NCBI GenBank assembly: GCA_026388695.1
Contig: JAPLJH010000057.1
Location: 1 to 41,476, forward strand
Source: Deltaproteobacteria bacterium
Lineage (GTDB): Bacteria > Desulfobacterota > Desulfobulbia > Desulfobulbales > Desulfurivibrionaceae
Length of the DNA: 41,476 bases
Direction: 5' to 3'
The position numbers and the translations under genes were made by a program. Positions 6,917 through 23,665 of this stretch are shown here, one piece after another; position 1 is the stretch's first letter, and each line of letters begins with the position of its first letter. Below the pieces are notes generated by a model. The model was given only the letters and a program-made list of their open reading frames with translations. It was not told the origin of the DNA and did not search any database.

Positions 6917-6961
6917 CAAAAAAAACGCTGGTCAAAAGACGGGCGTCCTTTGACCAGCGTT
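6917..6961 (-). terminator. Rho-independent terminator of fhs
   Basis: A perfect 13-bp stem (AACGCTGGTCAAA with its complement, 6924-6936 and 6949-6961) followed on the minus strand by a run of eight T. It starts 27 bp past the fhs stop and closes the nifU-nifS-thyX-fhs set. Confidence 0.93.
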
Positions 6962-20930: not shown

Positions 20931-21497
20931 TCACATTTCCTCCCTGGTAAAAAAATCGATAAGATTGACTAGAACTCCATAAAAAGGGTGGCGACCCTCT
21001 TGTAAAATCCGTGCCTGAAACTTTGGAAACCACGGCCTGAAATGCTGGGCCAAAAACCGCTCTTCCTCCTCGCTCTTGCCTTCCTCGGCCAGCAGGGCCA
21101 GAAATTCCAGCTCAAAGGAAATATGATCGGGAATATCCGCCTCGCCTACCAGGTCGAAGCCCTGCTCGCGGTAAAAGGCCCTGGCCTTTTCGGCGCTGGG
21201 GCCGTAAAGCATTCCGTCGCCGCTGAGATAGACCGAACCGTATGGCGGCGCGATCACGGTGGGGATGGCGTTGACAAACAGGCGGGTATGTTCCACCTGC
21301 AACGGCTCCAGCCAGTCATCGCTTTCGAAGATTGACTGCCCAAGTGCCTGGGTCTCGGCATCCCAGCCAAGTTCGGCCAGAAAGGTGTCGAGCACGGAAA
21401 AATAATCCGCCTGCATCCATTCGGGGCTGGGGTAGCGCATGGATTGGGCGAGAAAGCGGTAGATCTCAGCCATGCTGATCGAAGTGGTTTGGGTCAT
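20931..21497 (-). CDS. TorD/DmsD-family chaperone for the molybdoenzyme
   Basis: 188 residues from ATG 21497 (MTQTTSISMAEIYRFLA), chosen because AGGTGAAG lies just upstream; 30 codons of extra open frame upstream are not needed. The protein is all-helical in appearance and carries the family signatures EHTRLFVNA...APPYGSVYL and DHISFELEFLALL. These chaperones bind the Tat signal and hold the apo-enzyme until the molybdenum cofactor is inserted. Its stop is separated from the catalytic subunit start by one base (TGA-A-ATG), so the two are translationally linked. It is the first gene of the operon, facing the regB gene across a 277-bp divergent region. Confidence 0.88.
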   Translation of the reverse strand: MTQTTSISMAEIYRFLAQSMRYPSPEWMQADYFSVLDTFLAELGWDAETQALGQSIFESDDWLEPLQVEHTRLFVNAIPTVIAPPYGSVYLSGDGMLYGPSAEKARAFYREQGFDLVGEADIPDHISFELEFLALLAEEGKSEEEERFLAQHFRPWFPKFQARILQEGRHPFYGVLVNLIDFFTREEM

Positions 21498-21537
21498 GAT
21501 CTTCACCTGGGACAGAAAAATATCGTTATAGAAAAAC

Positions 21538-21611
21538 ACGCTCACCGGATGATGCGCCATCACATCGAAGAGCCGCCAGCAACACAAAGAAGGTTCCCAA
21601 CCGGTGAGCGT
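21538..21611. repeat. Long-range inverted repeat in the divergent region
   Basis: ACGCTCACCGG (21538-21548) and CCGGTGAGCGT (21601-21611) are exact complements separated by 52 bp, on the torD side of the 49-bp palindrome. They could be paired operator half-sites. Confidence 0.55.
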
Positions 21612-21650
21612 TTACAAGGAGAGGAAACAACGAAAAAGCTTTACCACGAT

Positions 21651-21699
21651 GTACCCCCGTTGCAAATGCGGCAAATTGTCGCATTTGCAACGGGGGTAC
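21651..21699. promoter_or_regulatory. 49-bp palindrome with RegA-like box between torD and regB
   Basis: Two perfectly complementary 20-bp arms (21651-21670 and 21680-21699) flank a 9-bp centre that is itself nearly self-complementary. The centre spans 21668-21682 and reads GCGGCAAATTGTCGC, i.e. GCGGC-N5-GTCGC, which matches the RegA/RegR binding consensus as I recall it at 13 of 15 positions. It lies ~75 bp before the regB start and ~150 bp before torD, with no T-run, so an operator is more likely than a terminator. Confidence 0.75.
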
Positions 21700-21774
21700 A
21701 GGTTGCGCTTCAACTTCCTGGCGAATAATGGTATGCATCAGGGGTTGCTTCCCAATTAACGAAGAGGCTATTCC

Positions 21775-23136
21775 GTGCACACTGTCGTCCAACAGAACAA
21801 TTTCAGCGGTGAAGAAAAAAACACCGCCTCGGCCAAAATCGCCTTTGCCTGGCTATTACATTTGCGCTGGGGTGCGGTGGCGGCCCAGGTTCTTCTGGTG
21901 CTGATCGCCCTCTTCTTTCTTGAGATCAGTCTCCCCTACCGGATTATCTCCGGCATCCTGATCTTTGAGATCAGCACCAATCTCCTGTTCGGCTTCCTGA
22001 AAAAGAAAGAAATGGCCATGGCCGACCAGCTTTTCGCGCTGGTCATGTTCCTGGATACCGCCCTGCTCACCGGACTTATCTACTATTCCGGCGGCCCCAT
22101 GAACCCGTTCACCTTCCTCTATTTGGTGCATATCACCCTGGGCGCCATCCTCATGCCGCCAGGCTGGTCATGGAGCCTGGCCTTTTTCACCACCGGCTGC
22201 TATGCCACCCTTTTCTTTCTCCCGGCCCAAGGAGACCTGGGCCAATCCTGCCATCCGGATCCTACAATGCTGGCAACCCTGAGCGACCCCCTAAAGATCC
22301 ATCTCCAGGGCATGTGGGTCGCCTTTGCCGTGACAGCGTTTTTCATTGTTTTCTTTGTCAGCCGGATTCAATTGGCCCTGGCTCGGCATCAGAAAACCCT
22401 GGCAGATCTCCAGGAGGAAAAAACCAAAAGCGAACGCATGGCCTCCCTGGCCACCCTGGCCGCCGGAGCGGCGCATGAGTTTTCCACCCCGCTGTCAACC
22501 ATCGCCGTGGCCGCAGGCGAGATGCTCCATGGCCTGAAGAAAAACACCAGCGCAGACTGCCAGGAACTTCTTGCCGATGTCGTCCTGATCCGCGATCAAG
22601 TCGCTCGCTGCAAGGACATCCTCTTTCACCTGGCCGCCGATGCCGGAGACCAGATGGGTGAGGCCTTCACGGATTTCTCCCTGGACGGGCTCATGAAAAA
22701 TCTGTTCGATACCTTTCCCGGCGCCAGCAAAAATCAGATACGATATATAAATAAGACGGGCGATCTTTCGATAAGGATGCCGCTTCGCACCCTGCGCCGC
22801 ATTATCCGGGGCCTTATCAAGAATGCCCTCGATGCCGGTCCGAGCGCCCCGGTTCAGGTGGAGTGCCGTCAAGACGCAACCCGGCTCTATATTGAGGTCA
22901 CGGACAATGGCTCCGGCATGGCCCCGGACATTGCCGAGCGGGCGACAGAGCCGTTTTTCACCACCAAGGAACCGGGCAAGGGATTGGGGCTTGGCCTCTT
23001 TCTTGCCAAATCAATAGCCGAAAGATTCGGCGGGGGGCTGAGCCTGATTTCCCAGCCGGGCAAAGGCTCGAAGGTAACGTTGTTCTTTGCCCTTCAACAG
23101 ATCACAGCCGGTACGCCGGAGGCATTTCATGGATAA
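21775..23136 (+). CDS. regB: RegB/PrrB/ActS-type redox sensor histidine kinase
   Basis: 453 residues. Six hydrophobic segments occupy ~20-200. The loop motif GGPMNPFTFLYL (~106-117) is the GGxxNPF quinone-sensing signature of RegB. The H-box is AAGAAHEFSTPLSTIAV (His234), and a cysteine at 279 (QVARCKDIL) matches the position of the redox-active cysteine of RegB just after the H-box. HATPase motifs NALDAG, DNGSGM and GKGLGLGLFLAKS follow. The start is GTG 21775 with GAAGAGG 7 bases upstream. The end overlaps the regA start by 8 bp. It faces the torD operon and probably reads quinone-pool or thiol redox state. Confidence 0.92.
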   Translation: MHTVVQQNNFSGEEKNTASAKIAFAWLLHLRWGAVAAQVLLVLIALFFLEISLPYRIISGILIFEISTNLLFGFLKKKEMAMADQLFALVMFLDTALLTGLIYYSGGPMNPFTFLYLVHITLGAILMPPGWSWSLAFFTTGCYATLFFLPAQGDLGQSCHPDPTMLATLSDPLKIHLQGMWVAFAVTAFFIVFFVSRIQLALARHQKTLADLQEEKTKSERMASLATLAAGAAHEFSTPLSTIAVAAGEMLHGLKKNTSADCQELLADVVLIRDQVARCKDILFHLAADAGDQMGEAFTDFSLDGLMKNLFDTFPGASKNQIRYINKTGDLSIRMPLRTLRRIIRGLIKNALDAGPSAPVQVECRQDATRLYIEVTDNGSGMAPDIAERATEPFFTTKEPGKGLGLGLFLAKSIAERFGGGLSLISQPGKGSKVTLFFALQQITAGTPEAFHG

Positions 23137-23665
23137 GACGATTCTTCTGGTGGACGATGAGGAGCTGTTCCGGGAACGGTTGGCAAAAGCCTTTAGCCAG
23201 CGCGGTTTCACGGTTTTCACCGCCGGTAATTTCGATGAGGCCATGCGGGTTATCGACCAAGAGAAGCCTGCCATGGGAGTGATCGATCTCAAAATGCCCG
23301 GCAAATCCGGGCTTGAGCTCATTGCCGCAGCCAGAGAGATCAACCCGGACATGCAAATGGTCGTGCTCACCGGTTACGGCAGCATCGCCACGGCCACGGA
23401 AGCGGTCCGGCTGGGCGCGCTCTATTACCTCCCCAAGCCAGCGGATGTGGACGATATCCTCGGCGCCTTTTCTAGGAATCCAGAACTAAACCTGGAGGTG
23501 GACCAGGATGAGTTCTCGGCCCCGTCCCTGGCCAGGGCGGAATGGGAACACATCAATCGCGTACTCACCGACTGTGACGGCAATATCTCCCTGGCCGCCA
23601 AAAAACTCGATCTGCACCGAAGAACCCTGCAACGAAAGCTACAAAAATATCCTCCCAGCAAATAA
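23129..23665 (+). CDS. regA: RegA/PrrA/ActR-type response regulator
   Basis: 178 residues. The receiver has the acidic pair DDE at 9-11, the acceptor D53 (VIDLKMPG) and K102-type switch residue in YYLPKPAD. A Fis-type helix-turn-helix closes the protein (CDGNISLAAKKLDLHRRTLQ, ~148-167), very close to the highly conserved RegA DNA-recognition helix. The start at ATG 23129 (MDKTILLVDDEE) has GGAGG upstream and overlaps the regB stop as ATGGATAA, so the pair is translationally coupled; 14 codons of upstream frame inside regB are rejected. It is the probable binder of the palindrome at 21651. Confidence 0.95.
   Translation: MDKTILLVDDEELFRERLAKAFSQRGFTVFTAGNFDEAMRVIDQEKPAMGVIDLKMPGKSGLELIAAAREINPDMQMVVLTGYGSIATATEAVRLGALYYLPKPADVDDILGAFSRNPELNLEVDQDEFSAPSLARAEWEHINRVLTDCDGNISLAAKKLDLHRRTLQRKLQKYPPSK

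Follow-up and report, generated by a model that had tools for sequence, protein, structure and literature searches.

What is a 51-bp, almost fully paired palindrome doing between a pair of regB-regA-like genes and a divergent torD/dmsD-like gene in a bacterium of the Desulfurivibrionaceae, and how did its arms become so long? We have addressed this question in a 41,476-nucleotide stretch of contig JAPLJH010000057.1 (here called the window) and in the corresponding loci of related genomes.

Results

The regB-regA-like locus

The palindrome occupies part of a 277-bp gap between a torD/dmsD-like gene on the minus strand and a regB-like gene, and the neighbouring genes are as follows.

20931..21497, minus strand: torD/dmsD-like chaperone gene (family match to Nitrate_red_del), with its ATG at 21497
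21775..23136, plus strand: regB-like sensor kinase gene with a GTG start
23132..23665, plus strand: regA-like response regulator gene

A molybdopterin oxidoreductase gene comes after the torD/dmsD-like gene on the same strand, and a NosL gene lies downstream of the regA-like gene. The kinase carries GGPMNPF, which fits the GGXXNPF quinone motif, and a candidate redox cysteine in QVARCKDIL that we take to be equivalent to Cys-265. A histidine kinase with this quinone motif and a redox cysteine is what has been described as RegB (PMC8191878). The regulator combines a receiver (Response_reg) with a Fis-type helix-turn-helix (HTH_8) containing the HRRTLQRKL helix, and it matches 3rqi_A (1.9e-40, with HRRTLQRKL identical) and, over the helix-turn-helix, 1umq_A (6.8e-9). 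The top NCBIfam matches are the ActS/PrrB/RegB equivalog for the kinase (210 bits, not reaching the cut-off of 350) and the ActR/PrrA/RegA equivalog for the regulator (180 bits, not reaching the cut-off of 250), and RegBA-like is therefore the safe name. The initial annotation had the adjoining genes encode RegB and RegA, and at the level of RegB/RegA-like proteins the domains, motifs and 3rqi_A match bear this out.

The palindrome and the sites beside it

The following features lie in the intergenic region.

21642..21647, plus strand: TACCAC, an element of the form TA[ACG]CA[CT] placed exactly 25 bp upstream of the core
21650..21666, plus strand: left palindrome arm, its inner TTGCAAA probably ancestral
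21667..21683, plus strand: 17-bp core TGCGGCAAATTGTCGCA, a RegA-type operator by comparison
21684..21700, plus strand: right palindrome arm, probably derived and matched to the left arm in the genus
21709..21737, plus strand: putative regB promoter TTCAAC-17-TATGCA

Together the arms and core form a 51-bp palindrome at 21650-21700, TGTACCCCCGTTGCAAATGCGGCAAATTGTCGCATTTGCAACGGGGGTACA, in which 24 of 25 pairs match; the sole unpaired position is a G.T at 21671/21679, near the centre. It had been reported as a perfect 49-bp palindrome. The extent of 21651-21699 and its two 20-base perfect arms around a 9-base centre are as reported, and the figure changes in that one further pair on each side brings the length to 51 bp and the G.T leaves the pairing one short of perfect. 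Under equal base frequencies and counting odd centres only, the expected number of palindromes with at least 24 of 25 pairs is about 3e-9 for the window and 2e-7 for the 2.58 Mb genome. The palindrome is the top-scoring one of the window (22, with a runner-up of 13); seven further hairpins scoring 15-18, overlaps counted, occur in 413 kb of retrieved loci, and arm length by itself is therefore not unique. Elsewhere in the window, a 38-bp hairpin at 6924-6961 lies between two minus-strand open reading frames and is possibly a terminator.

The putative promoter comes from an alignment of 10 of 14 genus loci (L008, L009, L011 and L018 were missed by the search pattern), in which G004 differs over the TTCAAC stretch; a sigma-70 scan returned no consensus site. 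The TA[ACG]CA[CT] element was recognised in a profile of 64 non-redundant sites, near-duplicates having been removed from 92, where it stands at exactly -25 in 25 sites and the next commonest offset accounts for 3. Because the reverse complement of TACCAC, GTGGTA, resembles the half-site TGYGGYA, the element probably serves as an accessory half-site, the alternative being a promoter element. With regard to a plain -10 role, it falls between the box and the gene at the NosL site, whereas at regB the box separates it from the gene.

A second, spaced inverted repeat, CGCTCACCGG ... CCGGTGAGCG, was observed at 21538-21551 and 21598-21611 of the window, in the interval between torD and the operator, with a 46-nt gap. 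It is kept in part of the genus, with matching changes in both halves in G007, and may belong to the torD leader or be two paired sites for a regulator.

The core motif

At the centre of the palindrome, GCGGC-AAATT-GTCGC (21668-21682) fits the GCGNC-N5-GNCGC form of the RegA operator inverted repeat. The earlier count of 13 of 15 positions against the RegA/RegR consensus as given there, GNGRCRTTNNGNCGC, is arithmetically correct. Conservation at regB extends further: outside the genus, 9 of 13 regB loci (L019-L023, L025 and L028-L030, the L025 core overlapping the first aligned regB codons) carry TGYGGYAWAWTGTCGCA with no more than one mismatch, and L024, L026, L027 and L031 lack it within the 420 bp examined. 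The genome scan proposed earlier for the box gave a divided answer, in that the 17-mer with at most two mismatches is enriched in the source genome (7+8 places against 1+1 in the control) and the loose GCGNC-N5-GNCGC pattern is not (49 against 71 in the reversed control).

Across both strands of 38 related genomes the motif pattern gave 145 matches against 9 in the reversed control, a count that partly contains its own source because the pattern was derived from regB-upstream sites of the same genomes. The same holds for the association with RegA, in which the 30 genomes with a RegA ortholog (E<=1e-30) average 4.3 matches and the eight without average 1.9 (Mann-Whitney p 0.004), and at least one match occurs in 30/30 and 5/8 genomes, respectively (Fisher p 0.007); the p values ignore kinship, and the regB sites themselves raise the ortholog-bearing group. 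Of the other three strong sites in the source genome, one adjoins a NosL-domain gene (C74), one lies by a gene for a multihaem cytochrome that matches the octahaem tetrathionate-reductase family best in NCBIfam without reaching the cut-off (C40), and one falls between an ABC/redoxin pair and a gene without a confident family (C38); C96 carries a weaker match with one mismatch. At C38 (L114 from 2712) a second box-like stretch, TGGCAATTTGCCGCA, comes immediately after the operator, and a similar tandem recurs in several genus genomes. Within the palindrome, 8 of 11 distinct genus rows retain the core G.T mismatch, which is what recognition of the core by a protein would predict.

On this comparative evidence we regard the inner 17 bp as a RegA-type operator of long standing, conserved beyond the genus, and RegA is the predicted and probable binder. 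The RegA-type box originally placed at the palindrome centre thus gains support from the regB sites of other genera and from the motif counts. Searches limited to open-licence literature found no paper on the 17-mer motif.

The arms in the genus and in outgroups

The genus set comprises 17 genomes, of which 16 have a regB match (G011 does not). The core precedes regB in 12 of these 16; in G004 it lies at the end of a separate contig (L183), the assembly break falling inside the palindrome (L183:1-40), and it was not seen before regB in G001, G008 or G009, the last with 141 bp of upstream sequence only. Among the at least 80 kinase-locus matches listed, one near relative (L033) was found, the others being more distant kinases that were left out, and L033 appears identical to record L008 of G016 in the same genus. 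G009 also carries a second regB-regA pair (L205, G009:C68) with scores and identities to the query nearly equal to those of G023 (genus g6), for which contamination (7%) and transfer are alternatives.

Ten of the 12 genus loci keep 9-12 of the 12 core-adjacent pairs, and in two sister species the arms are decayed (3/12 in G007, 4/12 in G012). The nine regB-proximal sites outside the genus have 0-6 of 12 pairs with at most two consecutive, and no arms this long occur at the other motif sites retrieved, a subset of the 145 matches. Among the loci compared, long arms are therefore limited to the regB site and to the genus. The longest mirror arms seen at a site other than regB are the 7-bp AAGGTGG/CCACCTT around a variant core, TGAGGTAAAATGTCGCA, at L193:1971 in G002.

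The arms change in a matched manner. Counting outward, the ninth pair varies among C-G, G-C and T-A in ten palindromic rows, which were selected for pairing, and it matches every time; in the decayed G007 it is unmatched. When all 12 genus loci are taken in, both-sided change occurs in 10 of 12 arm pairs, a number reached in 0 of 500 shuffles, and the tally of further pair types is reached in 2 of 500. One-sided change with pairing kept was seen in two cells, both in decayed rows. With G014 removed, both-sided changes fall to 4 of 12 arm pairs (13 of 500 shuffles as high), two of the four being in decayed rows, and further pair types become unremarkable (113 of 500); the covariation score and the number of paired cells stay at 0 of 500. 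The covariation thus leans on G014, the source of most both-sided changes, among eleven distinct rows in all.

The direction of change can be read from the closest outgroup on the regB tree, G020, in which the left arm matches at 8 of the 8 inner bases and the right arm at 2 of 8. With no counterpart of the right arm in G020, the left is probably the older of the two and the right was made to match it, and we infer that the right arm was probably copied within the genus, mainly on the strength of this one outgroup. The other eight regB-proximal outgroup sites match at 2-6 of 8 bases on the left (2/8 in G021) and 0-4 of 8 on the right; pooled over all nine, the left arm matches at 42/72 and the right, at chance level, at 15/72, the left-arm match being owed in part to an A-rich flank common to the motif.

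Two lineages depart from the common form. G014 has wholly different arms with 12 of 12 pairs matched, at an unchanged distance to the downstream promoter block; its box precedes regB, yet the upstream flank is unlike the torD leader of other species. In the sisters G000 and G013 (support 100/100) the palindrome is about five pairs longer, with two mismatches in G013, and the left flank is unlike that of other species whereas the right flank resembles theirs. This asymmetry suggests a later copy from right to left. A candidate spacer inversion was found just downstream in G004 (L012): its sister G002 reads CAGGAAG-CACTTCAA-CTTCCTG, and in G004 the spacer is TTAAAGTG. Because this candidate lies at a contig end, it may have arisen in assembly.

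Discussion

Our comparison favours, as a reasonably likely explanation, a core that is the RegA-type operator of regB-regA and long arms that are mainly a by-product of replication through quasipalindrome template switching. The RegA-like regulator would act through the inner 17 bp on its own regB-regA genes; the site centre lies about 69 bp upstream of the predicted regB start, and activation from upstream would be a guess. The divergent torD-oxidoreductase genes are perhaps also controlled through the core. The short dyad of the operator would allow fold-back of the nascent strand, so that the sequence of one flank is copied to the opposite side. On this model the left arm would have been copied rightward in an ancestor within the genus, the palindrome would later have been extended outward by about five pairs in the G000/G013 lineage, apparently from right to left, and further switching would have re-matched arms that had drifted. 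The arms may since have acquired a use, for example through the right-hand copy of the TTGCAAA flank.

RegA binding, the sign of regulation and the process of template switching are all what we infer, the observations themselves being a conserved core, arms confined to the genus, a left arm shared with the nearest outgroup and matched differences between species. The step from an ancestral imperfect repeat to a more perfect derived copy is seen in the comparison with G020, which has the left arm only, and the new 12-pair arms of G014 fit a single mutational event, as judged at the level of species. Bare template switching fails to explain why long arms arose at the regB site only.

Matched changes in both arms are also what compensatory selection for a hairpin would leave, and a less likely reading has the arms selected as part of an RNA, either the regB leader or a transcript of the opposite strand, which they would stabilise or attenuate. 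Positions 21640-21710 fold strongly as RNA (-46.5 kcal/mol, z -9.2), and TATAAC just upstream in relatives would, if it is a promoter, place the hairpin near the 5' end of the transcript. However, the ten palindromic rows, selected as they were for pairing, contain no one-sided change that keeps a pair, and the arms have decayed in G007 and G012. The arm mismatches of G013 and G010, too few to decide, are A.C on the sense strand and G.U on the other, and a search of 21400-21900 against Rfam returned a sub-threshold snoRNA match only. A terminator was considered separately and rejected, since no intrinsic terminator (a GC-rich stem followed by a T-run) was found in 21450-21850, and this too speaks against the hairpin.

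That another regulator, and not the RegA-like protein encoded here, recognises the motif is unlikely. Five of the eight genomes without a close RegA ortholog do hold motif matches (six in G033, three each in G011 and G037, two in G027 and one in G032), and both NCBIfam cut-offs are missed; against this, regB itself carries the motif in other genera, genomes with RegA have more copies of it, and its GCG inverted repeat agrees with the description of PrrA/RegA sites (PMC4263372).

The proposal of a special operator design, in which the long arms serve cooperativity, cruciform extrusion or dual control, fared less well. If regB and torD expression were tuned by a cruciform that depends on supercoiling, or by a larger platform for cooperative RegA binding, this would account for pairing that is maintained while the arm sequence differs, and the 51-mer forms a stable DNA hairpin (-29.3, z -11.7). 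Long arms are nonetheless missing from the regB loci of other genera and from the other motif sites retrieved, and two sister species have let them decay, so that we consider such a design distinctly unlikely. A version in which structure alone matters, with a supercoiling-dependent cruciform formed by any sequence that is paired and template switching re-matching the arms, is improbable; if it were true, RegA would be displaced from the linear core, and redox autoregulation would thereby be coupled to the cell's energy state.

Palindromes of about 51 bp are typical of REP-like and mobile repeats. A different 51-bp palindrome, of a length that is a multiple of three, was observed inside the open regB frame of G017 (L025:1479-1529). 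That the present palindrome is such a repeat inserted beside the operator is nevertheless highly improbable, and a REP or MITE was rejected for the source assembly (86.9% complete, 114 contigs): instead of copies at many unrelated sites there is no second copy at E<=0.001, an arm 16-mer with at most three mismatches shows no excess (28 matches, its own two arms included, against 27 in the reversed control), the position is identical in ten genus loci, and the core is conserved outside the genus.

The favoured explanation, an operator with template-switched arms, has counterparts in known systems. The operators of RegA, PrrA and RegR in alpha-proteobacteria are likewise GCG inverted repeats near redox and respiratory genes, beside a RegB/RegA-like pair. 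There, PrrA ChIP-seq in Rhodobacter sphaeroides is described as giving no strong consensus (PMC4263372) and RegR half-sites as variably spaced (PMC4064962), whereas here the site is a near-invariant 17-mer, often with a fixed -25 element. At quasipalindrome hotspots in E. coli, template switching makes imperfect inverted repeats more perfect by copying one arm (PMC7202029); the present case differs in being drawn from species comparison and seeded by the operator of a regulator. Inverted-repeat arms are also homogenised in yeast genes, with multinucleotide changes that perfect the arms and with spacer inversion (PMC8604942), whereas ours is a bacterial intergenic operator whose sole spacer-inversion candidate is the one at the G004 contig end.

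These findings carry a caution that matched changes in a palindrome need not imply a selected RNA or cruciform structure. They provide a motif, sharp enough to be tested, for a regulator of the RegA type beyond the alpha-proteobacteria, and the palindrome may preserve in nature the steps by which a short operator dyad becomes a long one.
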